A program made the position numbers and the translations under genes. From IMG/VR virus record IMGVR_UViG_3300029448_008110, positions 620 to 27,718 of that record: DNA of 27,099 bases. One strand, 5' to 3'. Below the pieces are notes generated by a model. The model worked only from the letters and a program-made list of their open reading frames with translations, was not told where the DNA came from and ran no database searches. Source of the DNA: a virus. Below are positions 969 through 27,086 of the stretch, piece after piece. Every line of letters starts with the position of its first letter. The stretch's first letter is position 1.

Positions 969-986
969 AGGTTGTTTTATATTATA

Positions 987-1817
987 ATGAAAATTCTAAT
1001 TAGTTGTCTTAGCTTTAGGAATTATACTGGTTCTGAATTATATTTTTACGAACTCGCGACTGAGTTAACTAATCAAGGTCACGAGATACATATATATTCT
1101 CGTTTTACTGATACCCCATTAACGACTAAATGCAAAAATATAATCTTCGATACAAAAGAAACTTTATTAACTCAAACTTTCGATAAAGTTATATTTTCTC
1201 ATGGTACTGTTTTGTGGGATGATATAAAAGATATTAAAACCCAAGAATTTGTTAATGTTTTACATTCTGAAGTGCTAGATTTAGAAAAGCCTATTATCGA
1301 TAATAAGATTAGTAGGTATGTAGGTATAAGACCCTCTATTATTGAATCAGTTAATGTAAAGTGTGATTTAATTTATAATCCGTTTGACTTTAATAGATTT
1401 AACCCGCAAGATTGTCTAAAAAGTAAAGATATCAAGGAAAAAATAGTTTTATTTCCCGGTAGTATTGATTATTTGAGATATAAACCAGTACAGTATCTGT
1501 TAAATTTATCCACCAAACAAAAATTCAAAGTTCTACATGTAGGTCGCATGGACTATAATATCACACACCCTAATTTTATTTCTAAAGAACCAGTATGGGA
1601 GATAGAGAAATACTACAAGCAGTGTGATATTGTGTCAGGTATATTTTTAGGTCGTACTTCTATAGAAGGTTTACTTGCAGGTAAACAGGTGTTCCAGTTT
1701 GATGTTGATAAGAATGGAGACATTAAAAAGGTGTATTGGCATAAAGAAGACAACTTAAATAAGTTTAATAGACATACAGTAGTAAATCAGTTTATAACCA
1801 CACAAAAATTTAGTTGA
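987..1817 (+). CDS. GT-B fold glycosyltransferase (GT4-like)
   Basis: This is a putative sugar transferase and the first gene of the glycan island. I chose ATG 987 (MKILISCLSF) rather than an in-frame TTG 15 bp upstream, because the first strand of the Rossmann domain begins there. The N-terminal part has the GT-B pattern of strand, TGSE loop and helix (YFYELATELTNQGHEIHIYS), as in GT4 enzymes that process activated sugars. Near the C-terminus, FLGRTSIEGLLAGKQVF resembles the donor-binding E-x(7)-E region (R-T-S-x-E-G), with the second acidic residue not obvious. At 276 residues it is shorter than classical GT4 enzymes (350-400), so the C-terminal domain is compact. Donor and acceptor cannot be told from sequence. 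No Shine-Dalgarno sequence is seen. Confidence 0.78.
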   Translation: MKILISCLSFRNYTGSELYFYELATELTNQGHEIHIYSRFTDTPLTTKCKNIIFDTKETLLTQTFDKVIFSHGTVLWDDIKDIKTQEFVNVLHSEVLDLEKPIIDNKISRYVGIRPSIIESVNVKCDLIYNPFDFNRFNPQDCLKSKDIKEKIVLFPGSIDYLRYKPVQYLLNLSTKQKFKVLHVGRMDYNITHPNFISKEPVWEIEKYYKQCDIVSGIFLGRTSIEGLLAGKQVFQFDVDKNGDIKKVYWHKEDNLNKFNRHTVVNQFITTQKFS

Positions 1818-1847
1818 CTTTAGATTTTTATATCTTAAAATAAAATA

Positions 1848-2477
1848 ATGTTAAATCTAGAGGGTATAGAAAATAAATTTAAAGATGTTTATAGCAGTGA
1901 ATCATTTGAGCAGATTCAGACTCTTTTTAATGAGCGACAAAACATTGTTGTACTGGGTAACGGTGGTAATTACGCAGTAGCTCAACACGGAGCCGCTGAT
2001 TGTTCAAGATTAACAACTAAAAATGTTATTAGTCTCGATAGCCCTACATATCTTACATCAATAGCTAATGATAATGGATATGAACAATTATTTGTTAAAT
2101 GGTTGGAGACATTATATAATAAAAAAATAATTAATAAGGATAATTCCTTTATTATTGGTTTATCATCTACAGGTACATCAAAAAACATATGCTCAGCACT
2201 TAATTGGTCAGTCAAAAATAAAATACCATGTAGTATTATTACAGGTCAACCTTCAGTTAATTTGAGACATGCGGATAGACCCCCGTTTGATAAAGATGTT
2301 ATTGAATGTATTCTTGAAACTGAACATTTTCATACTGCAGAAATATTAAGTTTAATACTTTTTTACCAGTTAGTAGAGGGCGCTGGTGAATGCTGCCCGT
2401 TAATTGACGAAGAAAAGGCTCGTCGTGCTGAATTAAATTGTAATTTTGATAATTTAAATCCGTATATTGAAGAATAA
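1848..2477 (+). CDS. SIS-domain sugar-phosphate isomerase, GmhA-like
   Basis: This 209-residue protein has a single SIS (sugar isomerase) domain closest to GmhA, which converts sedoheptulose 7-phosphate to D-glycero-D-manno-heptose 7-phosphate, the first step of heptose synthesis. Seen directly are a glycine-rich phosphate loop, GNGGNYAVAQHGAAD (37-51), the GmhA-type TSIANDNGYEQLF (70-82) and the Ser/Thr loop SSTGTS (106-111). A late ETEHFHTAEI segment lies where the GmhA catalytic Glu/His residues fall. No other heptose-pathway genes (HldE, GmhB, HldD) are in the window. The enzyme may therefore act on another C7 or C6 sugar phosphate, perhaps feeding the sugar-phosphate cyclase encoded about 3.4 kb downstream. 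The family call is firm; the substrate is inference. Confidence 0.82.
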   Translation: MLNLEGIENKFKDVYSSESFEQIQTLFNERQNIVVLGNGGNYAVAQHGAADCSRLTTKNVISLDSPTYLTSIANDNGYEQLFVKWLETLYNKKIINKDNSFIIGLSSTGTSKNICSALNWSVKNKIPCSIITGQPSVNLRHADRPPFDKDVIECILETEHFHTAEILSLILFYQLVEGAGECCPLIDEEKARRAELNCNFDNLNPYIEE

Positions 2478-2480
2478 GAT

Positions 2481-3218
2481 ATGACTGATCTCATCCAAAT
2501 TTCTACCTTTTCTGAATTTGTATTAAACTATTTCGACCAGGTATATGTTATAAATTTAGATAGTAGACCTGACCGGATGCAACAAGTTAATGAACTTTTA
2601 TCTCAATATAAAATTAACTATAAACGAATATCTGGTATTTTTTTAAAAGATAAGTATATAGATGTAATTAATAATAAAACTAATACATCGAGTCTCGGTA
2701 TCTTGGGTTGTATATTAAGCCATGTTAAATGTTGTCAAGACGCGCTAGATAATAACTATAATAGAATTCTAGTATTAGAGGATGATATTACGTTTATAGA
2801 GAATCACATTAATATTATTAATTTTCAGAAACTATATAATGAAATACAAACTATAGATTGGAATATATTCTATTTAGGCGCTACATTTAATAGTAAACTA
2901 ATTCCATTAACCCCTCACATAGATAAACCCTCTGGTGAGGTCTGGGCTACTCAAAGTATAGGATATAATAAAAATACTATAATGGAAATTACCAGTAAGA
3001 TACCTAGTGACCCAGATTATTATATGGTACAAAATAGACTCGAAGGTTTATTCCCTATAGATGTTATATATGATCGGAGTTTCAAAAAAAATCGGGTTGT
3101 TGTTAACCCTATTGTATGCGTACAAAATACATCCGCTAGTGATATAGTACCAGCAGAATTAATGATGAATAATACTGAATACCAACTAAGTAGGTGGCGT
3201 CAGAATAAATCTATATGA
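2481..3218 (+). CDS. Glycosyltransferase family 25 (LPS-type)
   Basis: GT25 enzymes are inverting transferases of LPS and capsule assembly, typically moving galactose or similar sugars. The hallmark N-terminal VYVINLDSRPDR (21-32) is present. It is followed by a GCILSHVKCCQDAL helix (76-89; family G-x-x-x-S-H) and the acidic ILVLEDD motif (96-102), a conserved family signature thought to bind metal and nucleotide sugar. The 245-residue length is standard. The gene starts 3 bp after the isomerase stop. Its end overlaps the start of the next gene by 4 bp (ATGA), indicating translational coupling. Specificity cannot be derived from the sequence. Confidence 0.9.
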   Translation: MTDLIQISTFSEFVLNYFDQVYVINLDSRPDRMQQVNELLSQYKINYKRISGIFLKDKYIDVINNKTNTSSLGILGCILSHVKCCQDALDNNYNRILVLEDDITFIENHINIINFQKLYNEIQTIDWNIFYLGATFNSKLIPLTPHIDKPSGEVWATQSIGYNKNTIMEITSKIPSDPDYYMVQNRLEGLFPIDVIYDRSFKKNRVVVNPIVCVQNTSASDIVPAELMMNNTEYQLSRWRQNKSI

Positions 3219-4063
3219 ATAAATCTAAATGGTATGGGGACTTAAAAGATAATATTATTAATATTAAACACACTGACTCTGTTATTAAATGGAGTTCTGC
3301 ATCTCCTTCCCCTGAAGCGCACTTCCAAGACCCGAGAATGAAAGCGTTAAACATTACTTCATATGAGGATTTTAAACGCAATGAAGATTTAGCGAAGTTA
3401 ATAGAGGGTAAAACTATTGCTTATGTATGTTCATCTCCTCATGTAAAGGACCAGGGGACTGTTATTGATTCTTTTGATTTAGTAGCTCGAGTCAACCAGA
3501 ACTTCCCGTTACCTAAAGAATTATATAAAGATAGAGGTAGCCGTATAGATATACAAGTTAATTGTTGTAATAGACCAAAGCGTAGAGCAATGACAGATAA
3601 TATAAATTTTATAAAAACAATGAAATTTATATTATGTCCCATGGTAACTGTATGGGAGCTGGGAGAGACAGATGATTTTCTTAAAAATACTAATGTACCA
3701 TACGAAAATATATCTGATGGTTATTTATTTAAAATTTTTAAAGAGATAGGAACTATATGTAATACTGGTTTATTAGGTATAATAGCTTTACTTAACTACG
3801 ATATAAAACTATATGTTACTGGTATGACGTTTTTTAATATGAACAATTTTGGTAGTATATATTATGATCAATATCACGATCACCAATCCTCTTATGGTCA
3901 ATTCAGTCAAACCTCGCAAAAGCACCCTATACCCTCGGAATTGAGAATGGATATTCATAATAATTTATATCAAATAGAATTTTTTAAGAAAATTGTTAAA
4001 GAACACTACCCTCATAAACTATTATTAGATAATTATTTGATAGAAAACTTTGTAGATAAATAA
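3215..4063 (+). CDS. GT29-like (sialyltransferase-like) glycosyltransferase
   Basis: The 282-residue protein has two regions that recall the sialylmotifs of family GT29. The first is GKTIAYVCSSPHVKDQG...IDSFDLVARVNQNF (about 65-97), resembling sialylmotif L (G-N-S...I-D-x-x-D-x-V-x-R-x-N). The second is GTICNTGLLGIIALL...LYVTGMTFF (about 179-207), resembling sialylmotif S (P-S-T-G-x-x). A later H-D-H-Q-S-S stretch and conserved histidines could be catalytic. GT29 enzymes use CMP-sialic acid, and a CMP-sugar synthetase homologue starts 1 bp after this gene ends, which fits. The N-terminal 60 residues are not recognised. Many bacterial members of this group are uncharacterised, so the donor may not be a sialic acid. 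Confidence 0.68.
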   Translation: MNKSKWYGDLKDNIINIKHTDSVIKWSSASPSPEAHFQDPRMKALNITSYEDFKRNEDLAKLIEGKTIAYVCSSPHVKDQGTVIDSFDLVARVNQNFPLPKELYKDRGSRIDIQVNCCNRPKRRAMTDNINFIKTMKFILCPMVTVWELGETDDFLKNTNVPYENISDGYLFKIFKEIGTICNTGLLGIIALLNYDIKLYVTGMTFFNMNNFGSIYYDQYHDHQSSYGQFSQTSQKHPIPSELRMDIHNNLYQIEFFKKIVKEHYPHKLLLDNYLIENFVDK

Positions 4064-4064
4064 T

Positions 4065-5231
4065 ATGAAAAGAAATATTTGTATGATACCAGCTCGTGCT
4101 GGTAGTAAACGAATTAAAAATAAAAATATTCGCGAATTAAACGGAAAGCCGTTAATTGGTTATGTAATAGAGGCTTGTATTAAGGCTAATTGTTTTGATG
4201 AGATTTATGTAAACTCTGAATCAGAATTAATTGGAGAGATTGCAAGTTCTTATAATATAAATTATTATAAAAGGCCTTCTTCTTTATCTACCGATAAATC
4301 TACTAACGATGAATTCGTCTTAGATTTTATCGAAAAAAATAATTTAGAAGATTGTAATATTATTCAAATACTACCTACTTCACCATTTTTGACATCTATA
4401 GAAATTACAGAATTTGTTAGAGCATTTACTACATGCCATAAAAATGATATATCATATACGACGTTAGTATCTGTTGTAGAAAACAAAATTGAGTGTCTAT
4501 ATCAAAATGACCCTATAAATTTTGATCGCTTGCAGCCTACCCAACCATCTCAACAACTAAATTCAATATTATCATATGCATGCGCTTTAATGGCGTGGTC
4601 TGCGGATAACTATTTGCATAATATTAAAGTTTTTAGTAGTGGTTATCATGGAGGAGACCCTAAAGACAGTAAAACATCTATTGGTACTTATAAATTGACA
4701 GGATTATCGTGTATTGATATAGACAATGAATCTGATTTCCAGCTTGCAGAGGCTATTATGAGAAGTAACCATAATACAAATCAATTTAAACCCAAGTATT
4801 ATAAATCTCAAGATAAAGAACGAATCGAAGATGACGTACCTAGTATTTTAGTTAAAGATGGGGTACCTAATAATGACTTACATGATTGTAATAAAGATGT
4901 TGTTAAAATTAACGACATTCTCGACTCAAAAAAAGAATTTAAATCATGGAGTAAGAGGATTATAAACACAGATAGTAATAGTGCTACTTTAATACAGCAA
5001 CTACCTGGGGAAGGTAATAGAAGACATTATCATCCTAACTGGAATGAGTGGTGGTATATTGTCGATGGTCAGTGGGAGTGGGAAGTAGAGGGGGAAATAA
5101 AAGTAGTAAATAAGGGAGACATTGTTTTAATTGAGAAAAATAAGAGACATAAAATAACCGCTATAGGAGATAAACCCGCTATCCGTTTAGCAGTAAGTAG
5201 AGAAGATGTTCCACATATATATGAAAATTAA
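4065..5231 (+). CDS. CMP-sugar synthetase (NeuA-like) fused to a cupin domain
   Basis: Residues 1-235 are a cytidylyltransferase of the NeuA/KdsB/PseF group, which activates a nonulosonic or related acidic sugar as a CMP-sugar. The nucleotide-binding IPARAGSKRIKNKNI (8-22), LNGKPLIGY and the LPTSPFLT motif (103-110) are all present. After a linker (about 236-260), residues 300-375 form a cupin. It has a perfect motif 1, G(x)5HxH(x)4E(x)6G, with H321, H323, E328 and G335, and motif 2 ends in H362, so it probably binds a metal. Cupins in sugar clusters are often epimerases or isomerases, so the fusion may carry out two steps of one pathway. Both domains lie in one uninterrupted 388-residue frame. 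The last 11 bp overlap the next gene. Confidence 0.9.
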   Translation: MKRNICMIPARAGSKRIKNKNIRELNGKPLIGYVIEACIKANCFDEIYVNSESELIGEIASSYNINYYKRPSSLSTDKSTNDEFVLDFIEKNNLEDCNIIQILPTSPFLTSIEITEFVRAFTTCHKNDISYTTLVSVVENKIECLYQNDPINFDRLQPTQPSQQLNSILSYACALMAWSADNYLHNIKVFSSGYHGGDPKDSKTSIGTYKLTGLSCIDIDNESDFQLAEAIMRSNHNTNQFKPKYYKSQDKERIEDDVPSILVKDGVPNNDLHDCNKDVVKINDILDSKKEFKSWSKRIINTDSNSATLIQQLPGEGNRRHYHPNWNEWWYIVDGQWEWEVEGEIKVVNKGDIVLIEKNKRHKITAIGDKPAIRLAVSREDVPHIYEN

Positions 5232-5904
5232 TTTTAAAAATAAAAATATTCTCATTACTGGTGGCTCTAGAGGTATAGGTAAAGAACTTGTCAATACATT
5301 TACAGATTTAGAAGGTAATATCACATACACATCTACTAAAGATTTAAATTTTAACAATCAGTCTTCAGTCAATATCTTTTTAAATAAAATTAAAAATACT
5401 ACCTTTGATATTTGTATTAACAATGCTGGTATTAATACAAATAATAATTTTTGTGATATTAAAGATGAAGATTGGAATAGTATAATTAACGTCAATTTAA
5501 CTGGGTGTTATAAGATATGTAAAGCTGTATCTAGAAATATGATAAATAAGAGATTCGGTAAAATTGTAAATATATCTTCTATTTGGGGTAATGTTTCTAA
5601 ACAAGGAAGAGCAGCGTATTCTGCTAGTAAGTTTGGAGTTAAAGGTCTTACGTTAGGCATGGCGTCTGAGTTAGCGCAATATAATATATTAGTTAATAGT
5701 GTGTCACCAGGGGTCACTATGACTGAGCTAACGGAAAAAACATTAGGAATAGAAGGTATGAATAAAATTAAAAAAGAAATACCGCTAAATCGTTTAGCAA
5801 CAACTAAAGAGATAGCAAACGCTATAATATTCCTATGCAGTGATTTAAATACATATATATCTGGCCAAGATTTAATAGTAGATGGGGGTTTTTGTGCTAC
5901 ATGA
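5221..5904 (+). CDS. Short-chain dehydrogenase/reductase (SDR)
   Basis: This is a classical NAD(P)-dependent SDR of about 227 residues. It has the cofactor loop TGGSRGIG near residue 14, the NNAG motif, a catalytic Ser in VNISSIWG, and Y-x-x-x-K (YSASK). The usual C-terminal ISGQDLIVDGG is also present. I chose ATG 5221 (MKINFKNKNILITGG) over the in-frame ATG 15 bp upstream because SDRs begin just before the first strand and the shorter form gives a minimal overlap with the previous gene. Position between the CMP-sugar synthetase and the sugar-phosphate cyclase suggests it oxidises or reduces a sugar or cyclitol intermediate. It resembles FabG, but a fatty-acid role in this setting is unlikely. 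The next gene begins in its stop codon (ATGA). Confidence 0.9.
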   Translation: MKINFKNKNILITGGSRGIGKELVNTFTDLEGNITYTSTKDLNFNNQSSVNIFLNKIKNTTFDICINNAGINTNNNFCDIKDEDWNSIINVNLTGCYKICKAVSRNMINKRFGKIVNISSIWGNVSKQGRAAYSASKFGVKGLTLGMASELAQYNILVNSVSPGVTMTELTEKTLGIEGMNKIKKEIPLNRLATTKEIANAIIFLCSDLNTYISGQDLIVDGGFCAT

Positions 5905-6974
5905 AAATAAAGTCTTATAGAGGTAAATATGAAGTAGTATTTAAACAAAATATAAAAGATACTATTACACCCGATGAAAAAAGCTTTTTCATCGTAGATA
6001 GAGAGGTTGAAAAATATAATCCTGATCTCTTTAAAGATGCAAAAAATGTAATATTTATTACCGCAGAAGAGTGTAATAAAGATTTAGAGTATTCCTCTTC
6101 TATTATAAGCTCTTTAATAGAAAAAAATATAAAAAAGAACTGTGTATTGATAGCAGTCGGTGGTGGTATAACTCAAGATATAACTTGTTTTATTGCTTCT
6201 ACTCTATTTAGAGGTATAAGTTGGTATTTCGTACCAACTACTTTATTATCTCAAGCAGATAGTTGTATAGGTAGTAAGAGTTCTATTAACTTCAAAGGTA
6301 TAAAAAATTTATTAGGTAATTTTTATCCACCTAAAAAAATATTTTGCTGTTCAGATTTCTTAAAATCCCTACCTATTCAACAAATTAAATCTGGTCTAGG
6401 GGAAATATTACATTTTTTGTTTATAGGTAATAGTAAATTATTACATACTTTTGTTTCTGACTATGATAACTTGTTAGAGTTAAGTCCTACTATCGATAAC
6501 TATATTGAAGAGTGCCTATCTATTAAAAAGAAAACTATAGAAAAAGATGAGTTCGATACTGGTGTACGTCAAATTAATAACTTCGGTCATACATTTGGTC
6601 ACGCATTAGAAACAGCGACTGATTATAATTTATCTCACGGTCAAGCTGTTACCATGGGTATGTCTATAGCTAATTTTATATCTTTAAATCTAGAGTTTAT
6701 AGATTCTACTACATATAATTTTAATCAAAATATTATAAATGTTAATCTACCAGAAGTTATTCTTACAAAAGAACAAAAAACTTTATTTTTTGCTGCTCTT
6801 AAAAAAGATAAGAAAAATATTAATAATAGTTTAGTATGTATTTTACAAAAAAAGGATAATAAGATTTTTTGGAGATCAAATGCTACTTCATTTAACATAC
6901 ATACATTAGAAAATTTTATAAAGGTAGAGGAAATTATTAATATATACTTTAAAAATAATGAAACCAGTATTTGA
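5901..6974 (+). CDS. Sugar-phosphate cyclase, dehydroquinate synthase superfamily
   Basis: This is a 357-residue NAD- and metal-dependent cyclase of the AroB / 2-epi-5-epi-valiolone synthase / 2-deoxy-scyllo-inosose synthase superfamily. Visible motifs are the NAD loop VGGGITQD (86-93), FRGISWYFVPTTLLSQADS (103-121), GSKSSIN (124-130) and KNLLGNF (135-141). The metal ligands are E168, H230 (in NFGHTFGH) and H246, with the normal 16-residue spacing between the histidines. In dehydroquinate synthases the metal Glu is followed by a conserved Lys (E-V-I-K). Here the sequence is E-I-L-H, placing His171 at that site and suggesting a substrate other than DAHP. No other shikimate gene is near. Substrates used elsewhere in the family include sedoheptulose 7-phosphate, consistent with the GmhA-like isomerase in the island. 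Start ATG 5901 overlaps the SDR stop. Confidence 0.88.
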   Translation: MKIKSYRGKYEVVFKQNIKDTITPDEKSFFIVDREVEKYNPDLFKDAKNVIFITAEECNKDLEYSSSIISSLIEKNIKKNCVLIAVGGGITQDITCFIASTLFRGISWYFVPTTLLSQADSCIGSKSSINFKGIKNLLGNFYPPKKIFCCSDFLKSLPIQQIKSGLGEILHFLFIGNSKLLHTFVSDYDNLLELSPTIDNYIEECLSIKKKTIEKDEFDTGVRQINNFGHTFGHALETATDYNLSHGQAVTMGMSIANFISLNLEFIDSTTYNFNQNIINVNLPEVILTKEQKTLFFAALKKDKKNINNSLVCILQKKDNKIFWRSNATSFNIHTLENFIKVEEIINIYFKNNETSI

Positions 6975-8112
6975 TATAGATTTAAATTATAATTTAAGTA
7001 AAAATTCTTTTATATATGATAATAAATCTAAAGAATATTTCTTAGATTTGTTTTGTATGTTTTCCTCTTTACCATTAGGGTATAATCACCCTATTTTTGA
7101 TAGAGAGTTTGAACGAGATATTATTACTATAGGTAAAATTAAAACATCTAATAAAGCGTTTAAAACTGAAGTATATAATCGTTTTGATAATTCTTTCAAA
7201 GAATGGATTACTGATTTCCACAATACTCATTATTGTTCTACAGGAGCTCTTGCAGTTGAAGCAGCATGTAAATGCGCATATTTCCATAACCCAGGAAAAA
7301 AACGAATACTTACATTCAAAAAGTCTTTTCACGGTATATATGGCTTTACAACATTTCTTACAGACAAATTTTCTACTACAGAATCAAGATTAAATTATTT
7401 ACCATCAAACATACTATCAAATAATTACTGTTTAGAGGAGGACTCTTTAAACTTTTTATTAAAAAACCCCACACATGCAAAAGACATGATACCAGATGTT
7501 GCTGGTATATTAGTAGAGCCAATTAAATGTACATATGGAGATGAATTTTGGGATAAAAAGGATATTATGTCTCTACGGTTGTTAGCAGATACTCTTAATA
7601 TACCTTTAATCTTTGATGAAATACAAGTAGGCTTTGGAGCAACAGGTAAACAATGGTATTATAAGCACCTGGATATAATACCAGATATACTAATATATGG
7701 TAAGCGAACTCAAATTTCTGGTATCGCAACATCTAAAAAGTATAGCATGCCTAATATGTCTGATACATTAGGTTGCACCTGGGATGGAGATATAGTAGAT
7801 ATGCTTAGATGTGTGTATATAATGAACGCATTTAAAGAATATAATATATTAGATAATGTTAATAACTCAGCTAATGTTATTAAACAAGGATTAAAGAATA
7901 ATAGTAATTTTCTCTTTGAAAATGAAGGGTTAATTATGTCTGCTAAATTCGAAACGACAGGGAATAGGGATAAATTTTATAATTATTTGTTTAGCAATAA
8001 AATTTTATCTAACCCTACAGGAGAAAGGTGTATTCGTTTTAGACCAAGCTTGGGTATTAGTGAGACTGAAATAATTATGTTTATAGAGATAGTCAATAAA
8101 TATGAATCATAG
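6958..8112 (+). CDS. Class III PLP aminotransferase (lysine 6-transaminase-like)
   Basis: This 384-residue fold-type I PLP enzyme belongs to aminotransferase class III. The cofactor-binding STGALAVEAA loop (94-103), IFDEIQVGFGATG (218-230; D220 contacts the pyridine nitrogen) and the Schiff-base lysine K249 in YGKRTQISG are all present. The G-K-x-T-Q form is typical of the L-lysine 6-transaminase (Lat) branch. Class III aminotransferases are rare in surface-sugar pathways, most of which use DegT-type enzymes. Some aminocyclitol pathways such as acarbose do use class III enzymes. Following a sugar-phosphate cyclase and overlapping it by 17 bp, this enzyme may aminate a keto-cyclitol or keto-sugar. 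The true amino acceptor is unknown. Confidence 0.87.
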   Translation: MKPVFDIDLNYNLSKNSFIYDNKSKEYFLDLFCMFSSLPLGYNHPIFDREFERDIITIGKIKTSNKAFKTEVYNRFDNSFKEWITDFHNTHYCSTGALAVEAACKCAYFHNPGKKRILTFKKSFHGIYGFTTFLTDKFSTTESRLNYLPSNILSNNYCLEEDSLNFLLKNPTHAKDMIPDVAGILVEPIKCTYGDEFWDKKDIMSLRLLADTLNIPLIFDEIQVGFGATGKQWYYKHLDIIPDILIYGKRTQISGIATSKKYSMPNMSDTLGCTWDGDIVDMLRCVYIMNAFKEYNILDNVNNSANVIKQGLKNNSNFLFENEGLIMSAKFETTGNRDKFYNYLFSNKILSNPTGERCIRFRPSLGISETEIIMFIEIVNKYES

Positions 8113-8992
8113 AGAAGGGGTAGAACTATCACGAGGGAAGACAGCATTTGTTATAGGTACAGGTCCTAGTTTGAGAGATATAGATGTATCTTTACTCAAA
8201 GACCATACTACTATAACGTTTAATCGAGCTTATATAGCATTTGAAGATTGGGGTTTCGACCCCACGTATTATCTTGCGATTGACAGTAATGATATTAGAT
8301 CAATTTATAAAGATATTAATAATTTAATACTTAATAGTAATATAGAAAAATTCTTTTTCACAGATACACTCAATAATGAATATTATACTCATAAAGATTC
8401 TTATCAAGACGGTGATATAGTGTCAAGTGACGAAATGCTTGTTGGTAGTGAGAAGGTATATTATCTCTGGCCAGATCTTCAAGCTTTGAATGACCCTGAA
8501 GCATACGCAGCGTTTCTACGTATACGATATAATAACCTTTATCCTAATAAGGAATTGATACCCCACGATAAAGCATATTTTCCGGTGTTTGTCAATGATC
8601 ATTGGTCTAGTAGTACAGGAGGAGCTAATGCTGGATTTTGCGGTATTAAGGTTTTAGCTGCGCTTGGTTATAGTAGGATTGCCTTTGTTGGGTGTGATTG
8701 TCGGTATCAAGACGATAAACAAAGTAATATAGATATAACTACACGTACTGGAGCTGTGGGAGAAGAATACACATCACACGCAGATACAGATATAAATCAT
8801 TTCAGTCCGAAATATTTCGGAAAAGGCATTCATTTCGGAAAACCCAATGAACCAGATATATTAAATATTTGGCGACTTGGCGCTGAGATACTTAAAAGAA
8901 CTGGTATACAGGTGATTTCTTGCACCAAAAACTCTAAAGCTAATGAATGGTATGATTATATACCTTTTGAAGATTTTATTAAAACCATATGA
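8102..8992 (+). CDS. DUF115/MAF-like putative glycosyltransferase
   Basis: This 296-residue protein has a Rossmann-like start, GKTAFVIGTGPSLRDID (12-28), as in the DUF115 / 6-hydroxymethylpterin-pyrophosphokinase-MptE-like family. That family includes the motility-associated factors (MAF/PseE) implicated in transferring nonulosonic acids to flagellin, and it is distantly related to sialyltransferases. A second family feature is GGANAGFCGIKVLAALGYSRIAFVGCD (about 174-200), a helix-strand pair ending in an acidic pocket. It overlaps the aminotransferase by 11 bp and the GT11 gene by 4 bp. It most likely transfers or binds the CMP-activated product of the upstream genes. A protein acceptor such as a phage structural protein is possible but unproven. 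Confidence 0.7.
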   Translation: MNHREGVELSRGKTAFVIGTGPSLRDIDVSLLKDHTTITFNRAYIAFEDWGFDPTYYLAIDSNDIRSIYKDINNLILNSNIEKFFFTDTLNNEYYTHKDSYQDGDIVSSDEMLVGSEKVYYLWPDLQALNDPEAYAAFLRIRYNNLYPNKELIPHDKAYFPVFVNDHWSSSTGGANAGFCGIKVLAALGYSRIAFVGCDCRYQDDKQSNIDITTRTGAVGEEYTSHADTDINHFSPKYFGKGIHFGKPNEPDILNIWRLGAEILKRTGIQVISCTKNSKANEWYDYIPFEDFIKTI

Positions 8993-9789
8993 TAACGTTT
9001 AGACAATTAGGTAGATTTGGTAATTTAGGTAATACTCTATTCCAGTACTCTACTCTACTAGGAGTGAGCTATAAAACTGGTTACGATGTTTTAATACCGA
9101 AACATGATACATACTATGAGCCTAGTTATGAGAATTATAATTATTCTATATTTGACGGCTTTGATATAACTACCCCTATTTTTAAAACAGATACAACAAA
9201 ATATAATTTTGAATATAATGGTATGGATTATAGATCTGATATTTTTCAAATATCAGATAATACTAATTTGCACGGGTATTTTCAAAGTGAAAGATATTTT
9301 AGTTTTTGTAGATCTTTAATTTTAGATAATCTTAAGTTTAAAGAAGATATAATTAACAAAAGCGATATCTTTTTTAAGAATTTAAATATAGACCCAGGAG
9401 AAACGACCTCTATACATGTAAGGAGAGGGGATTACCTTAAAAAAACTCAACATCACCCCATACAACCATCTGATTATTATAAAGAAGCAATTAAGCACAC
9501 TAAAAATAAAAACTACTTGTTTTTCTCAGATGATATTGTATGGTGTAAATCAACATATAAAGATAATAAAAACGTTTATTTTAGTGAAAATAATAACCCG
9601 TTCATAGATTTATACTCAATGTCAAAATGTAAGGATAATATTATAGTTAATAGTAGTTTCAGCTGGTGGGGAGCATGGATGAACTCTCATCCAGATAAGA
9701 AAGTTGTAGCACCTAGTAAGTGGTTTGGGGCGGCTTATAGTCATTATACCGCAAAAGATATAATACCTCAAAGTTGGATGGTTTTATGA
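8989..9789 (+). CDS. GT11 alpha-1,2-fucosyltransferase-like enzyme
   Basis: GT11 enzymes transfer L-fucose (in some cases colitose) from the GDP-sugar in alpha-1,2 linkage to galactose, as in Lewis-type and O-antigen structures. The signature HVRRGDY (143-149), which binds GDP-fucose, is intact. The upstream LGRFGNLGNTLFQY (7-20), DLYSMSKC (207-214) and the NSSFSWWGAW block (221-230) are standard family motifs. The 266-residue length is typical. The GDP-sugar would come from the Gmd and Fcl-like enzymes encoded 2.7-4.6 kb downstream. The gene overlaps both neighbours by 4 bp, indicating coupled translation with the next, unrelated fucosyltransferase-family gene. Confidence 0.92.
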   Translation: MITFRQLGRFGNLGNTLFQYSTLLGVSYKTGYDVLIPKHDTYYEPSYENYNYSIFDGFDITTPIFKTDTTKYNFEYNGMDYRSDIFQISDNTNLHGYFQSERYFSFCRSLILDNLKFKEDIINKSDIFFKNLNIDPGETTSIHVRRGDYLKKTQHHPIQPSDYYKEAIKHTKNKNYLFFSDDIVWCKSTYKDNKNVYFSENNNPFIDLYSMSKCKDNIIVNSSFSWWGAWMNSHPDKKVVAPSKWFGAAYSHYTAKDIIPQSWMVL

Positions 9790-10592
9790 AAATTAATTTA
9801 GTAGATTCTACATTTTCCCATTGCGAAGTCAGTAGTAACCCTCTGCCTATTATTAATAAGGCAAAGCATATACAATGGCTGAGAAGAGACTCAATAAACG
9901 AAACTGTTATCTATACTGATAGTAATATACCATTAGCGGTATCTAGTAAATCTATAGCTTGGTTGATAGAACCAGAAGAAATTAAATCTGCAGGGTATAG
10001 TTTTGTAAGGAAAAATTACAAGAAGTTTAAATCTGTATGGACATATGACCGAGAACTTCTCAATACGATTCCTAACGCAACATTTTACCCGTTTGGTGGT
10101 TGTTGGATTGAGAATAATGATAGAGCAATCCATAAAAAAACTAAAACATTTTCTATAATATCTTCAAACAAAAAACAAACTATAGGGCATAAACTAAGAC
10201 ATCAAATAATTTCAAAATCTAACAATAAAATTGATGTATTTGGGGCGGGTTATGAACCTATAGAAAATAAAATACAAGGATTACGGGATTATAGATATCA
10301 CTTTGTTATTGAGAATGTAAGAAAGGACTATTGGTTTACAGAAAAATTAATAGACTCGTTTATTACAGGTACTATACCTATATACTGGGGGTGTCCTTCT
10401 ATTGGAGATTTTTTCAATACAGATGGTATGGTTATTTTTAATGATTTAATTGAATTGCAGGAGAAATTAAAAAAATGTACAGATAGTTTTTATAACGATA
10501 GGCTTGACATTATAAAAGAGAATTTTAATTTAGCTAGAAAATATACTCTTGCAGAGGATTGGATTTATAGTAATATATTAAATAATGATTAA
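9786..10592 (+). CDS. GT10 alpha-1,3/1,4-fucosyltransferase-like enzyme
   Basis: The GT10 family transfers fucose from GDP-fucose in alpha-1,3 or alpha-1,4 linkage and builds Lewis antigens in animals and Helicobacter. The 268-residue product has the conserved C-terminal donor-binding stretch FVIENVRKDYWFTEKLIDSF (173-192), followed by GTIPIYWGCPSI (195-206). This matches the family pattern F-x-x-x-F-E-N-S-x-x-x-D-Y-V-T-E-K followed by G-x-x-P-V-x-x-G. The N-terminal acceptor domain is divergent and short. I use ATG 9786, which overlaps the GT11 stop (ATGA), rather than an in-frame ATG 12 bp upstream. Together with GT11 it would allow a doubly substituted, Lewis-like epitope if both use the same GDP-sugar. 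Confidence 0.87.
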   Translation: MKINLVDSTFSHCEVSSNPLPIINKAKHIQWLRRDSINETVIYTDSNIPLAVSSKSIAWLIEPEEIKSAGYSFVRKNYKKFKSVWTYDRELLNTIPNATFYPFGGCWIENNDRAIHKKTKTFSIISSNKKQTIGHKLRHQIISKSNNKIDVFGAGYEPIENKIQGLRDYRYHFVIENVRKDYWFTEKLIDSFITGTIPIYWGCPSIGDFFNTDGMVIFNDLIELQEKLKKCTDSFYNDRLDIIKENFNLARKYTLAEDWIYSNILNND

Positions 10593-11769
10593 TTTAGTTA
10601 GTGATACAATAGATAGGGCAGATATTAATAATTTAATCGAATGGCTCAATCAAGAGCCCATACCAAGATTAACTAAAGGACATCTGACAAAGGAATTAGA
10701 AGATGCCTGGGCAAAAAAAATAGGTACTAATTATAGCGTGTATGTTAATTCTGGTTCTTCTGCGTTACTACTAACACTAGCAGCTCTAAAATACTTTGAA
10801 ATTGAGAATGGACCATCCTCGTATAATTTTTTAAAAAACAATAAAATAGTTATTCCAAATTTAAGCTGGGCAACAGATGTTTCGTCTCCACATTTATTGG
10901 GGTATGATGTATCTTTAGTTGATTGTAATTTAGATGATTTAAGCGTTGATATAGAATCATTAGAGAGAATATTTATACAAGAAACACCTGCTGCGCTTAT
11001 GCTAGTATCTGTTTTAGGTTTTGTACCAAAAATGGATGTAATAATCGATCTATGTAATAAATATAATGTTATATTACTTGAAGATGTTTGTGAGTCAATG
11101 GGTTCGGAATATAACAATCGCAAATTAGGGTCGTTTGGTTTAGCTTCATGTTTTTCTCTATACTTCGGTCATCATCTATCTACTATAGAAGGTGGTTTTA
11201 TTAATACCGATAATAAGGATTTTTATAATTTATTATTAAGCATGCGAAGTCATGGATGGGATAGAGACTGTGATAAGGATGTACAAACTTTATGGAGAGA
11301 TAAGTATAATGTAGATGACTTCTCGAGTTTATATACATTTTTTTACCCGGGCTTCAATGTACGTAGTACTGACTTGCAAGCATTTATAGGTTTACGTCAA
11401 ATAAATAAATTAGATAATTATAAAATAAAAAGAAACACGAATTATAAATTATATAAAAAATATATTACAAATAATAAACTAAATTTAGAAGAAAGAACGA
11501 ATGACTTTATATCTAACTTCACATATCCTGTGATTGCGGAAAACAGAAGTAGTATTGTTTCTGAATTACAAAAAAATAACGTAGAGGTTAGACCATTAAT
11601 AGCAGGAGCAATGCATAAAAACCCTTTTATTAAGAAATACATTACTAGAGAACACAATAAGAGTTTCCCTAATTGCGAGCTTGTGGATACTCAGGGGTTC
11701 TATATACCTAATCATCAAGATATTTCGGAAGAAGACATAAAATTTATAGCAAATATAGTAAATGAATAA
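10585..11769 (+). CDS. colD: ColD-like PLP-dependent sugar 3-dehydratase (DegT/DnrJ/EryC1 family)
   Basis: This 394-residue protein has the DegT/DnrJ/EryC1 aminotransferase fold: NSGSSALLL for phosphate binding (55-63) and LLEDVCES with D167 for the pyridine ring. The position of the Schiff-base lysine is a histidine, with H196 in FGHHLSTIEGG. This replacement defines the dehydratases ColD (GDP-4-keto-6-deoxy-D-mannose 3-dehydratase) and RfbH/E1, rather than aminotransferases. Later segments MRSHGWDRD, PGFNVRSTDLQAFIG, VEVRPLIAG and FYIPNHQ follow ColD closely. ColD uses PMP and glutamate to remove the 3-hydroxyl of the Gmd product on the way to GDP-L-colitose. Gmd and an Fcl/ColC-like enzyme are encoded just downstream, which strongly supports this reading. 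It overlaps the GT10 gene by 8 bp. Confidence 0.85.
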   Translation: MINLVSDTIDRADINNLIEWLNQEPIPRLTKGHLTKELEDAWAKKIGTNYSVYVNSGSSALLLTLAALKYFEIENGPSSYNFLKNNKIVIPNLSWATDVSSPHLLGYDVSLVDCNLDDLSVDIESLERIFIQETPAALMLVSVLGFVPKMDVIIDLCNKYNVILLEDVCESMGSEYNNRKLGSFGLASCFSLYFGHHLSTIEGGFINTDNKDFYNLLLSMRSHGWDRDCDKDVQTLWRDKYNVDDFSSLYTFFYPGFNVRSTDLQAFIGLRQINKLDNYKIKRNTNYKLYKKYITNNKLNLEERTNDFISNFTYPVIAENRSSIVSELQKNNVEVRPLIAGAMHKNPFIKKYITREHNKSFPNCELVDTQGFYIPNHQDISEEDIKFIANIVNE

Positions 11770-11821
11770 GGGTACTTGCATCGATATAGCTGGTGTTTAA
11801 ATATTACTGTAGCAATTAATA

Positions 11822-12451
11822 ATGAAAACCACAGACGACTTCAACTGGGATACATATACAACAGAATACGAGAGACAAGTAACTAAAGAATTAGAAATAG
11901 AAGATAAATTAGATCTTATAATTAAAGATTTTACTACTGATTCTAATAATATATATTTTGAAGATAACTTACACCCAAATTGGAAGGAGCTATATTATCA
12001 TGTCTTTAAATTAAAACCAAACTCGATTTTTGAGTGTGGCTGTGGTTGTGCGCATCATTTAATTAATATATCTAAAATATTACCACATGCTGATATATCA
12101 GGTTGTGATTATAGTCAATCTCAAATAAACTTAGGCTATAAGTATTATAATTTAGATAAATATGAATTTAACAAGACATTATTCGTACAGGATTTAACTA
12201 AAAATATCGATACAACAAAAAAATATGAATTTGTATATACTCAAGCAGTAATGTTGCATTTATCATATGAACGCGCTAAGCTCTTTTTATCTAATATGGC
12301 TAAACTTTCTAGTAGATATATTTTCTTTATAGAAAATTTTTCTCAGCATAATTTCTATAATATGGTAGAAGAGGTTATACCGGAATTTGAAATAATTAAT
12401 AACAAAAGTAAATTCTTAGATAATAACTTTATGCTTTTAAAGAGAAAATGA
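11822..12451 (+). CDS. Class I SAM-dependent methyltransferase
   Basis: This 209-residue protein has a Rossmann-type methyltransferase core: motif I as IFECGCGCAHHL (strand plus Gly-rich loop with unusual cysteines), GCDYS as the acidic ribose-binding end of strand 2, VQDL near the adenine pocket, and YTQAVMLHL as motif IV. The order matches small-molecule or sugar O-methyltransferases. It lies between the ColD-like and Gmd genes, so methylation of a sugar is the natural guess; there is no DNA-methylase NPPY or DPPY motif. A 52-bp spacer precedes it, the longest gap inside the second half of the island. Its last 4 bp overlap the Gmd start. Substrate unknown. Confidence 0.8.
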   Translation: MKTTDDFNWDTYTTEYERQVTKELEIEDKLDLIIKDFTTDSNNIYFEDNLHPNWKELYYHVFKLKPNSIFECGCGCAHHLINISKILPHADISGCDYSQSQINLGYKYYNLDKYEFNKTLFVQDLTKNIDTTKKYEFVYTQAVMLHLSYERAKLFLSNMAKLSSRYIFFIENFSQHNFYNMVEEVIPEFEIINNKSKFLDNNFMLLKRK

Positions 12452-13416
12452 AAAAGGCTTTAATTACAGGAATCTCTGGTCAAGATGGTTCATATTTATC
12501 TGAACTCTTATTAGAGAAAGGTTACGATGTATGGGGGTTGATAAGACGTAATTCCTCGTCATCTAATCAAACTTCACGAATTAATCATATTTTTGATAAA
12601 ATAAATTTAAGATACGGTGATCTTACAGACCCGTTATCCTTGATTAATATTATTAAAGAAATTCAACCTGATGAAATATATAATTTAGCTGCACAATCTC
12701 ATGTTAGAGTTAGTTTTGATAACCCTCACTACACAGCTTGTACTACGGGCTTAGGTACATTAAATTTGCTTGAAGCTGTAAGACAAATAAACCCGAGTAT
12801 AAAAATATATCAAGCATCTTCTAGTGAGATGTTTGGTAATAATATAGATTCCGATGGGTATCAGAGAGAGTCTACTCCAATGTCACCTGTATCACCATAT
12901 GGTTGCGCGAAAGTATTTTCATATAATATATGTAATAATTATAAAAATAGTTATAATATGTTTATTAGTAATGGTATTCTTTTTAATCATGAATCCCCGC
13001 GTAGAGGTATAACCTTTGTTACTAATAAAGTAGTTAAATGCGCAGTTGAAATTTATAAAGGAACACGGACTAATTTACCACTAGGTAATCTCAACGCAAC
13101 TAGAGACTGGGGCCACGCAAAGGACTATGTAAAAGCTATGTGGATGATGTTACAGCAAGATACTCCAGATAATTTTGTATGTTCAACTGGCATTTCTCAT
13201 TCTGTTGAAGATTTAGTACGTTATGTTTTCGGTAAACTTGATTTAGATTATAAAAAATATATTATTCAAGATAAACGATTTTTGAGACCAGAAGAGCTCA
13301 GAGATTTGAAGGGTGATTGTAGTAAACTAAAAAAAGCTACCTCTTGGGAACCTATATATAGTTTTGAGACAATGCTCGATGAAATGATTGAGTTTTGGAA
13401 AGAAACGATAATATGA
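12448..13416 (+). CDS. gmd: GDP-mannose 4,6-dehydratase
   Basis: Gmd converts GDP-D-mannose to GDP-4-keto-6-deoxy-D-mannose, the shared precursor of L-fucose, colitose, rhamnose and perosamine. The extended-SDR features are complete: NADP loop TGISGQDGSYL (7-17), RRNSSSSNQTSRI (33-45), LAAQSHVRVSFDNP (80-93), the catalytic SSSEMFG (124-130), Y151 and K155 in SPYGCAK, and NHESPRRG (180-187). At 322 residues it is slightly shorter than the usual 345-370. GDP-mannose must come from the host, since no ManC or ManB is present here. A purine-rich AAAGAG precedes the start, one of the few candidate Shine-Dalgarno sequences in the window. The next gene begins within its stop codon. Confidence 0.95.
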   Translation: MKKALITGISGQDGSYLSELLLEKGYDVWGLIRRNSSSSNQTSRINHIFDKINLRYGDLTDPLSLINIIKEIQPDEIYNLAAQSHVRVSFDNPHYTACTTGLGTLNLLEAVRQINPSIKIYQASSSEMFGNNIDSDGYQRESTPMSPVSPYGCAKVFSYNICNNYKNSYNMFISNGILFNHESPRRGITFVTNKVVKCAVEIYKGTRTNLPLGNLNATRDWGHAKDYVKAMWMMLQQDTPDNFVCSTGISHSVEDLVRYVFGKLDLDYKKYIIQDKRFLRPEELRDLKGDCSKLKKATSWEPIYSFETMLDEMIEFWKETII

Positions 13417-14351
13417 GTATTTTAGTCACAGGTGGTACTAGTACTATTGGTAAACATTTAAAGGAATTTTTACCAGACGCTAAGTATGTATCCTCTTCGA
13501 TGTTTGACTTAACGCGTCAAGAAGAAGTAGAAAGGATGTTTGCATATACAAACCCAACTATTGTTATACACTTAGCAGCAACAGTCGGGGGTATACAAGA
13601 TAATATTAATTACCCGGATCGTTATTTAGAAGAAAACGTTCTTATGAATACGTTTGTTACTAGACAAGCAATGAAACAGAGAGTCAAGAGGTTTATCGGT
13701 ATTCTAAGTACTTGTATTTACCCAGATAAATTATCAGCTGATCAGTATCCTATGACTGAAGAAATGCTTCACTTGGGCCCACCTGCTCCAACAAACTTTG
13801 GCTATGGTTACTCTAAAAGATTACTGGGTGTACAAATAGATACATATAGAAAACAATACAAAAATATAAAATACTCATATATTACTCCCTGTAATCTTTA
13901 TAGCGAATATGATGACTTTCATAATGACAGTAAGGCTCATTTTGTTACTGCTTTATTACAAAAAATTAAAAATGCTGTTAATACAGGATCGAAAGAATTA
14001 AATTTATTCGGTACAGGTACTCCGTTAAGACAATTTATACATTCTAAAGATGTTGCAAGAATTATTAATAGGTGTATTACTTCTGATTTGTATGAAAACT
14101 TTAATGTCGCAGATAGCAGGTGTTTATCTATTCGAGAGTTAGCTGAAACAACATTAAGAGCTTTAGATATTGATCTAGAGTTAAAATTTGATACGTCTAA
14201 GCCAGATGGACAATATCGAAAAGATGTAAGTAATAAAAAATTATTAGAGTTTTTTCCTGACTTCAAATTTACTTCGTTTGAAGATGGTATTCGTTTGGTT
14301 TATAAAAATCTGGTTTTAAATGATACAAGCAAACTACGAAAAAAAGCTTGA
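13413..14351 (+). CDS. fcl: GDP-fucose synthase / GDP-colitose synthase-like epimerase-reductase
   Basis: Fcl (WcaG) performs 3,5-epimerisation and 4-reduction to give GDP-L-fucose. Its relative ColC performs 5-epimerisation and 4-reduction to give GDP-L-colitose. The 312-residue protein has an NADP loop VTGGTSTIGKHL, AATVGGIQDN (56-64), the active-site STCIYP with C101, the GPPAPTN segment (122-128) and Y131/K135 as the Y-x-x-x-K pair. All fit the Fcl/ColC group. The sequence alone does not settle fucose versus colitose; the neighbouring ColD-like gene favours colitose or a mixture. I start it at ATG 13413 in an ATGA overlap with gmd, not at an in-frame ATG 18 bp upstream. GGAAAG about 10 bp upstream is a possible ribosome site. 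This is the last gene of the glycan island. Confidence 0.9.
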   Translation: MSILVTGGTSTIGKHLKEFLPDAKYVSSSMFDLTRQEEVERMFAYTNPTIVIHLAATVGGIQDNINYPDRYLEENVLMNTFVTRQAMKQRVKRFIGILSTCIYPDKLSADQYPMTEEMLHLGPPAPTNFGYGYSKRLLGVQIDTYRKQYKNIKYSYITPCNLYSEYDDFHNDSKAHFVTALLQKIKNAVNTGSKELNLFGTGTPLRQFIHSKDVARIINRCITSDLYENFNVADSRCLSIRELAETTLRALDIDLELKFDTSKPDGQYRKDVSNKKLLEFFPDFKFTSFEDGIRLVYKNLVLNDTSKLRKKA

Positions 14352-26180: not shown

Positions 26181-27086
26181 TTACTGTCTACCTGTTTTAG
26201 ACCATGGTTCAGTCTCGTCCCACATTTTCTTCTCAATTAGATACTCATGAGAGCATCGCTGAGGATTAATATCCCAGCCACCTCGTCTTACATATAAGCA
26301 AGCAACTGATAACTCTGTAGGTTTATATCGTTCCCATAATCTACTATAAATAGTCTCACAAATCTCTTCATGGAAATGACATTCATCTCTAAATGATATA
26401 ATATACTTCATTAGACTATCATGAGTAGGTACAGACTGACCTTTGATATAGATATAAACATCTCCCCAATCGGGTTGAGATGTAACCCTGCAGTTACTCT
26501 TTAGTAGTCTTGAAAATACTTTAAAGGGTTTTCCTGCTTGTGAGTCATTATCTTTAAGTAAATCAGGAGTTTCAGAGTATACATCTATATCTAATGTTTT
26601 AAATCTCTCTTCTAAGCACTCATACGATGAGTGATCGTCTAAGAAATCCATATCTCCGTATTCTAATTCAATAGGATTAAATAACTGTACTTTGACATCA
26701 GTTTCAAGTAATTCACTAAGATCTTTAGATGCTCTTTCTTTAATACTACTAAATACTTCGCAGATATCTTTACCTAATTTCTCCATATTGAAACTATTCC
26801 AGTAAAGCTTCATAGATTTAGACTCTACAATGTATTTACTATCACAAGGGTATACTACTTTCGCGACAAAGGCCGTAGGGAGACCTGAATCTAACAAGGC
26901 AGACACCTCAAATCCATTCCATACATCACATCCAAAGAATGGAAGCGCCTCATCTTTTATATTTAGATGTTTCCTATTGTTAATTCTAGGCTCTCTTACA
27001 AGAAGAGATGGGTCGTATGTAGATTTATACTGACTAGATTTACCTAGGTGCTTGCTAATTGCGCTATTATCTAATGTATCACTCAT
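26181..27086 (-). CDS. queF: NADPH-dependent 7-cyano-7-deazaguanine (preQ0) reductase, bimodular type
   Basis: QueF reduces preQ0 to preQ1 with NADPH in the queuosine pathway. The 301-residue protein is the long E. coli-type form with two tunnelling-fold modules. The N-terminal part shows GKSSQYKSTYDPSLL (15-29), a VESKSMKLYWNSFN specificity motif (87-100) with Glu88, and LPFFGCDVW. The C-terminal module has the catalytic Cys199 in LLKSNCRVTSQPDWGD, Asp206, and FHEE with His239 and Glu240, then RRGGWDINPQR. All key residues are present. In phages, deazaguanine enzymes may serve tRNA queuosine or 7-deazaguanine DNA modification; no other pathway gene lies in the window. ATG 27086 leaves 13 bp to the edge. 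It is transcribed convergently with gp23. Confidence 0.97.
   Translation of the reverse strand: MSDTLDNSAISKHLGKSSQYKSTYDPSLLVREPRINNRKHLNIKDEALPFFGCDVWNGFEVSALLDSGLPTAFVAKVVYPCDSKYIVESKSMKLYWNSFNMEKLGKDICEVFSSIKERASKDLSELLETDVKVQLFNPIELEYGDMDFLDDHSSYECLEERFKTLDIDVYSETPDLLKDNDSQAGKPFKVFSRLLKSNCRVTSQPDWGDVYIYIKGQSVPTHDSLMKYIISFRDECHFHEEICETIYSRLWERYKPTELSVACLYVRRGGWDINPQRCSHEYLIEKKMWDETEPWSKTGRQ

Follow-up and report, generated by a model that had tools for sequence, protein, structure and literature searches.

The window, the whole stretch of 27,099 nucleotides that we analysed, sits in a 27,718-base virus record. It encodes a T4-type portal (phrog_213, E 2.5e-102) and a T4-type major head protein (phrog_138, E 3.9e-86), and because both stand in the same window as the open reading frame at 3215-4063, we take this frame to be of phage origin. 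Among the best matches listed, the head protein is about 34-35% identical to those of known phages, cyanophages first. A sugar cluster (972-14351) separates thyX (315-968) from the head genes, and almost all of its genes overlap or directly adjoin the one that follows. A GTP cyclohydrolase-like gene (26181-27086, minus strand; phrog_5949, E 3.2e-77) follows the capsid gene on the opposite strand.

The frame at 3215-4063 lies on the plus strand, as do all cluster genes named below. It starts with ATG, runs for 282 amino acids uninterrupted by an internal stop, and is annotated here as a putative GT29-like CMP-sugar transferase. Its ATG overlaps the stop codon of a GT25 glycosyltransferase gene (2481-3218; PF01755, 1.2e-17), which is preceded by a gene for a GmhA-like SIS-domain sugar-phosphate isomerase (1848-2477; TIGR00441 4.7e-11 and PF01380 0.00042, both below cut-off). 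At its other end the stop codon finishes at 4063 and the next ATG stands at 4065, so that, as the earlier note had it, a single base separates it from a CMP-sugar synthetase gene. The product of this gene (4065-5231, 388 amino acids) is a fusion of a synthetase of the NeuA/PseF/KdsB superfamily (PF02348, 2.5e-23) and a cupin (PF07883, 2.4e-14). An SDR oxidoreductase (5206-5904; PF13561, 1.1e-46), a TIGR04425-like, AroB-like sugar-phosphate cyclase or phospholyase (5892-6974; 391.2 bits, cut-off 400) and a class III aminotransferase (6958-8112; PF00202 1e-43, lysine epsilon-aminotransferase 2jjh 1.8e-35) follow. Beyond them lie a Maf/GT42-like gene (8102-8992; PF01973, 5.9e-10), GT11 and GT10 fucosyltransferase-like genes (8989-9789, PF01531 9.3e-25, and 9774-10592, PF00852 2.2e-06), a DegT-type aminotransferase/dehydrase (10585-11769; PF01041, 1.7e-56), a GDP-mannose 4,6-dehydratase (12448-13416; PF16363, 2e-116) and an epimerase/reductase resembling GDP-fucose synthase (13395-14351; PF01370, 2e-41), whose function is assigned by context.

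The window carries two candidate CMP-sugar transferases of different families, the GT29-like protein and the product of the Maf/GT42-like gene. A family profile of the latter finds CstII (E 0.013). Its low-confidence model (pLDDT 65.9) resembles Maf 5mu5 (Z 12.9, rmsd 5.2, 192 aligned) and Cst-I 2p2v (Z 12.8, rmsd 4.1, 211 aligned); the model is poor, and we treat these matches as leads only.

Family, fold and donor site of the GT29-like protein

GT29 is the animal sialyltransferase family. We used the gathering cut-off of its Pfam model PF00777 (23 bits) as the threshold for membership. PF00777 is the best Pfam match of the window protein (12.8 bits, E 0.076, residues 79-116), and no Pfam family scores above its cut-off. 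PF06002 (GT42) gave no match at E<=1, PF01973 (MptE-like/Maf) gave none, and neither PHROGs nor NCBIfam contained a match for the frame; a divergent relative, L043, matches PF01973 with 13.6 bits against a cut-off of 34.6. Searching phages and plasmids with the window protein by tblastn returned nothing at E<=1, and a viral scan queried with a bacterial GT29 yielded no relatives; other phage and bacterial GT29s were reached only with a relative, L004, as query. Two PDB matches of the window protein alone, to a collagen adhesin (8.2e-07, resting on two 14.8-bit stretches) and to meso-DAP dehydrogenase, appear chance-like and were rejected because no family-level profile repeats them.

The family as a whole gives a clearer assignment. 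Its members were taken from viral contigs and one MAG contig; the near-identical record L001 apart, their identity in the best segment is 41-62%. All 15 members in our alignment match PF00777 at E<=1; the ten relatives scanned singly all exceed its cut-off (25.0-37.3 bits), as do 12 of 15 in a whole-record scan. When the 15-row profile was compared with all PDB sequences, eight matches were returned up to E 10, every one a GT29 sialyltransferase, with ST3Gal1 (2wnb) the best at 1.4e-4. Widening the profile with five other GT29s brought 2wnb to 4.4e-10, with motifs L and S both aligned; only this widened profile found CstII (E 0.0024), which ranked after eight GT29 sequences. By hhalign, the family aligned with three bacterial GT29s at 96.7% over 183 columns, the region of H248 included, and with five bacterial and phage GT29s at 98.2%; a control with a family of like fold, the Maf-type proteins encoded in these clusters, gave 0.6%. 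In sequence, then, the protein stands as a divergent GT29 relative, as the earlier note had proposed.

Several family members have unusual settings. In L005 (5110-6837) and L008 (5140-6858) the GT29-like domain makes up the C-terminal half of a longer protein (about 572 amino acids), and the N-terminal half in L008 matches no Pfam family above cut-off. In L015 (3-1127) the frame breaks after the motif S region and runs into unrelated sequence, indicating a chimera or a degraded copy; this member, broken within the domain, was left out of the 15-row alignment and of the VS and VGN counts below. Locus L016 is a 13.8-kb contig (JACAFS010000027.1) binned as a Thaumarchaeota MAG and carrying the phage-type cassette. 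A PF00777 search of 51 genomes of one archaeal phylum found the family in a single genome, the MAG of this very contig. Mis-binning is likely because the other genomes of that sample lack PF00777.

We next consider the predicted structure. An AlphaFold2 model of the window protein built from the 15-row alignment (pLDDT 83.3, pTM 0.87) has, by prediction, a GT-A variant 2 fold, the "sialyltransferase-like Rossmann" class. In a Foldseek search of the PDB, GT29 enzymes fill ranks 1-23 (best E 6e-4); GT29 enzymes, ST6Gal1 and ST3Gal1 among them, match the model over most of its length, which agrees with the family proposed in the earlier note. With VIA-align, rat ST6Gal1 (4mps_A) scored Z 10.2 (rmsd 4.0, 200 aligned), CstII Z 9.4 (rmsd 3.6, 194 aligned) and an archaeal HPPK Z 8.8 (rmsd 3.7, 172 aligned); SteA stood lower in the list (Z 7.6, rmsd 4.4, 168 aligned). 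The Z scores of GT29, GT42 and MptE lie within about 1.5 units of one another, so that the fold by itself gives a tie and it is sequence that decides for GT29.

The two motif readings of the earlier note, IDSFDLVARVN (residues 84-94) and ICNTGLLGIIALL (residues 181-193), are correct, as are its coordinates. The resemblance goes beyond chance: most columns are invariant or nearly so in 15 relatives at 43-53% identity, and profile searches place the stretches on the L and S sialylmotifs of porcine ST3Gal1. The motif L equivalent spans residues 66-112 (3410-3550), as placed by the 15-row alignment and the alignment with ST3Gal1 2wnb. Its core, GxxIDSxDxVxRxN, is invariant in all 15 rows, and the invariant columns comprise S74, G81, I84-D85-S86, D88, R92, N94, D106, G108 and D112. 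Residue 73, at the position of the GT29 VGN Asn, is Ser in the window protein and Pro in 13 of the 14 rows with a letter there. The motif S equivalent, GTxxNTG...TGMTFF, spans residues 179-207 (3749-3835). Its NTG...TGMTFF aligns with the S-T-G...YGF of GT29, such that N183 stands at the motif Ser and T184-G185 retain the Thr-Gly. Motif III is reduced to Tyr220 (3872-3874), its sole conserved part (Y in 15/15); the preceding position is Q, K, N, E, T or D, and the motif III His is not conserved in the 15 rows. It is also absent from two of three bacterial GT29s, and this His seems from these alignments to define the eukaryotic members only. The motif VS equivalent, H248-x4-Q253 (3956-3973), has H and Q invariant in 15/15, and H248, the putative catalytic base, aligns with the VS His of bacterial GT29s.

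To place these residues at the donor site, we transferred the roles described for human ST3Gal1. In the excerpt of PMC6884586, the contacts of the CMP phosphate are N147 and N170, S148 stabilises CMP, S268 and T269 contact Neu5Ac, and H299 (motif III) and H316 (motif VS) act as acid and base; the same excerpt lists E321Q among mutants that keep 25-80% activity. By alignment, N147 corresponds to residue 73, S148 to S74, N170 to N94, S268 to N183, T269 to T184, H316 to H248 and E321 to Q253, and H299 has no counterpart. We then compared 48 GT29 rows, of which 14 were duplicates, leaving 34 distinct sequences (29 cassette-type and five other GT29s). HxxxxQ is present in all 28 intact cassette-type members, the VGN Asn in none of the 28 with letters at that position, and the place of the motif S Ser is taken by Asn in 28 of 29 members, among them 27 of the 28 that are intact. 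The five other GT29s all have the VGN Asn and the motif S Ser, and four have HxxxxE, the fifth (L023) being doubtfully aligned at VS. N94 is kept in most members and is Gln or Gly in six divergent ones. Together, the three shared substitutions at the donor end suggest that the clade uses a different donor or holds it differently. CMP binding itself is less certain, since the clade lacks the VGN Asn, which binds the CMP phosphate in ST3Gal1.

Linkage to the synthetase and the nature of the sugar

The earlier note had suggested that the gene encodes a transferase dedicated to its neighbour. In a search from the GT29 side, the synthetase was the next gene in 15 of 16 loci, the exception being the broken copy in L015; its start codon was not located automatically in 3 of the 16 rows (L005, L006, L009), in which the gene is adjacent. 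To remove the bias of this approach, we searched from the synthetase side. This yielded 34 loci, two of which (L063, L064) match the cupin only and were left out. The 32 that remain are not independent: 12 lie on contigs of the first scan, and L045-L047 are identical over the DNA compared. A GT29-like gene is present in 28 of these 32 viral loci, and in 16 of the 20 that were newly found. It lies directly upstream of the synthetase in 25 of the 28, with something between the two in L052, L053 and L059. Its upstream neighbour varies, and its downstream one is constant. The four loci that lack it (L040, L049, L055, L056) all carry a PF01973 GT42/Maf-like gene, with scores under the 34.6-bit cut-off in L040 (28.8) and L056 (30.3). 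Such a swap of CMP-sugar transferase types beside the same synthetase is as expected of a dedicated transferase, and the linkage looks functional. Synthetase and cupin are two separate neighbouring frames in L011 and L012 and are fused in most other loci.

We next asked what sugar the cassette might supply. The best NCBIfam model for the synthetase is PseF, at 98 bits against a cut-off of 205.7, and in the PDB it matches 1eyr (2.5e-17), the CMP-NeuAc synthetase of Neisseria meningitidis. Across the 32 synthetase loci, a class III aminotransferase is found in 29, a SIS gene in 25, an SDR gene in 23 and an AroB-like gene in 21; within the locus stretches examined, the AroB-like gene is missing from 11 (two of them, L001 and L060, cut short) and the SDR gene from nine. 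TIGR04425, near which the AroB-like protein belongs, is named as a putative "cyclizing" sugar phosphate phospholyase. It is matched in 10 of 15 records, in five of them above the cut-off of 400, and none of 14 control genomes exceeded that cut-off. An aminocyclitol or similar donor is suggested because the AroB-like protein is near this "cyclizing" phospholyase. L004 and L006 have the core cassette without the AroB-like and SDR genes, and the sugar may therefore vary between loci. Pairs of frames whose translations resemble split transketolase N- and C-terminal subunits stand upstream of the cassette in L002 (1753-2867), L003 (819-1986), L004 (3303-4381) and L016 (2800-4006).

The sialic-acid synthase NeuB was found in one of 33 viral records (G067) and PF00793 in none of the 33; many of these records are fragments (the two longest have 165,609 and 156,635 bases), and for fragmentary records the absence of NeuB is weak evidence. 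The single NeuB homologue, at 41762-42262 on the minus strand of G067, lies about 1 kb from the cassette stretch examined. The earlier note had spoken of a sialyltransferase relative. Kinship to GT29 holds, and sialyltransferase as an activity does not follow: nothing speaks for sialic acid itself as the donor, given the altered donor-site residues and the failure to find NeuB in 32 of the 33 records.

Evidence on the acceptor comes from gene fusions and neighbours. A four-domain glycosyltransferase, with GT2, GT11, GT10 and GT29 domains in that order, is encoded by a single open frame (1,085 codons) in L045 (1747-5001, plus strand) and identically in L046 and L047. The window itself has GT11 and GT10 genes and two genes resembling the GDP-fucose pair. 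Because of this frame and these genes, the sugar is likely attached to, or near, a fucosylated oligosaccharide. None of nine records searched contained a PF01943 (Wzx-type) flippase, which makes it less likely that the phages have a complete surface polysaccharide pathway of their own; assembly of the glycan may finish on host carriers, or a phage protein may receive it.

Proposed role and comparison with known systems

We consider it probable that the frame encodes an inverting GT29-type transferase that extends a fucosylated glycan with a phage-made, probably non-sialic sugar, X, delivered as CMP-X. The enzyme would be soluble and divergent, with a GT-A variant 2 fold. X would be built by the phage cassette through the SIS isomerase, AroB-like cyclase, class III aminotransferase and SDR, and then joined to CMP from CTP by the synthetase-cupin encoded directly downstream. 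Transfer would proceed with inversion, H248 serving as catalytic base, to a glycan that also bears fucose from the cluster's GT11 and GT10 enzymes. X would probably be an amino sugar or an aminocyclitol-like compound and not sialic acid, and the purpose may be decoration of the host surface or the virion. We infer the catalysis and purpose, and read the donor and acceptor from gene context.

A bolder version of this proposal, which we put forward only tentatively, is that a GT29 subfamily carried by viruses, recognisable by its missing VGN Asn, its motif S Asn and HxxxxQ, switched to an aminocyclitol- or carbasugar-like CMP-donor made by the AroB-type cyclase and class III aminotransferase and activated by the synthetase-cupin. 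Such a pathway would be without known cellular counterpart, and GT29 and GT42/Maf-type transferases would interchange within it.

Alternatively, the protein might be a true sialyl- or nonulosonate transferase, its synthetase activating host-made Neu5Ac, pseudaminic acid, legionaminic acid or Kdo, and the AroB-like, aminotransferase and SDR genes serving another sugar. We regard this as unlikely, but it draws on several observations: the nearest models of the synthetase are PseF and NeuA, a Paracoccus plasmid GT29 adjoins an acylneuraminate cytidylyltransferase, NeuB lies close to the cassette in G067, CMP-Kdo transferase activity is reported for a plant GT29 (excerpt of PMC11288761), and the activity of E321Q and its class in human ST3Gal1 (excerpt of PMC6884586) makes HxxxxQ compatible with sialyl transfer. 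Against it stand the near absence of NeuB and PF00793 from the 33 records, the three shared substitutions that separate the clade from the five other GT29s, and the aminotransferase that accompanies the synthetase in 29 of 32 loci.

It is less probable still that transfer from CMP-X falls to the Maf/GT42-like protein (8102-8992) and that the GT29-like one has lost its role or uses another nucleotide sugar. The former does look like Maf/GT42, PF01973 genes occur in the loci that lack the GT29-like gene, and the VGN Asn is lost in the GT29-like clade; however, a Maf-like gene is recognised by profile in 12 of the 32 synthetase loci against 28 for the GT29-like gene, which adjoins the synthetase in 25 of those 28, and the GT29-like protein retains H248, N94 and motif S. 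That the protein is not GT29 at all, and acquired the motif L core by convergence within a distinct GT-A variant 2 or MptE-like lineage, is very improbable: the window copy is below the PF00777 cut-off, the motif III His is missing and the fold scores give a tie with CstII at Z 9.4 and archaeal HPPK at Z 8.8, but its relatives exceed that cut-off, the PDB profile matches are exclusively GT29, a bacterial GT29 aligns along the domain including the VS His, and the comparison with the MptE-like/Maf family gave 0.6%.

Returning to a GT29-type transferase for a phage-made CMP-sugar, its interest lies in the tight pairing of such an enzyme with its own CMP-sugar synthetase in some thirty viral records, with shared donor-site changes; the gene pair makes the question of the donor directly testable. 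If X is not a nonulosonic acid, the known chemistry of CMP-activated sugars would widen, and the system would show how phages remodel glycans. Among the open-licence PMC titles and abstracts examined on phage GT29, CMP-activated cyclitols, phage sugar genes and the AroB-related phospholyase, none describes the cassette. As far as this literature shows, the cassette linkage and the donor-site signature of the clade are new. The earlier note's remark that bacterial and phage members are little studied needs qualifying: bacterial GT29s are in print (excerpt of PMC5811610) and databases hold GT29-annotated proteins of Caudovirales and of giant viruses, and the remark holds for biochemistry, of which we found none for the bacterial or phage branches in the literature examined.

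The closest cellular comparison is with the bacterial GT29s described in 2018, a set of 23 sequences, 19 of them from alphaproteobacteria, which according to the excerpt of PMC5811610 have no transmembrane region and no conserved disulphide cysteines. Bacterial GT29s such as WP_114294753.1 from Pseudosulfitobacter share with the phage protein PF00777, the motif L core, the motif S Gly and the VS His, and two of the three examined lack the motif III His, as it does. Unlike the phage clade, they keep VGN and HxxxxE; they are about 16-18% identical to the window protein, and a cytidylyltransferase gene lies nearby in just one of the three, that of Paracoccus. Mammalian ST3Gal1 and ST6Gal1 have the fold, the alignment of motifs L and S and the single VS His in common with the phage protein, which by comparison is without the motif III His and the VGN Asn and has Gln for the VS Glu. 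CstII of GT42 and the Maf flagellin glycosyltransferases share a GT-A variant 2-like fold, tied by Z, whereas the window protein has no PF06002 or PF01973 match and the local Maf-type family aligned at 0.6% by hhalign. Among viral proteins annotated as GT29, A0A6J5NLG3 from an uncultured Caudovirales phage (Foldseek E 3.3e-5) and one of ChoanoV1 have a similar fold, and two proteins named glycosyltransferase family 29 are 13-18% identical to the window protein in the Foldseek alignments. Finally, the plant GT29 RCKT1/MGP2, described in the excerpt of PMC11288761 as the CMP-Kdo transferase of RG-II, is a eukaryotic Golgi enzyme, likened here by description, and provides a precedent for a GT29 with a non-sialic CMP donor.
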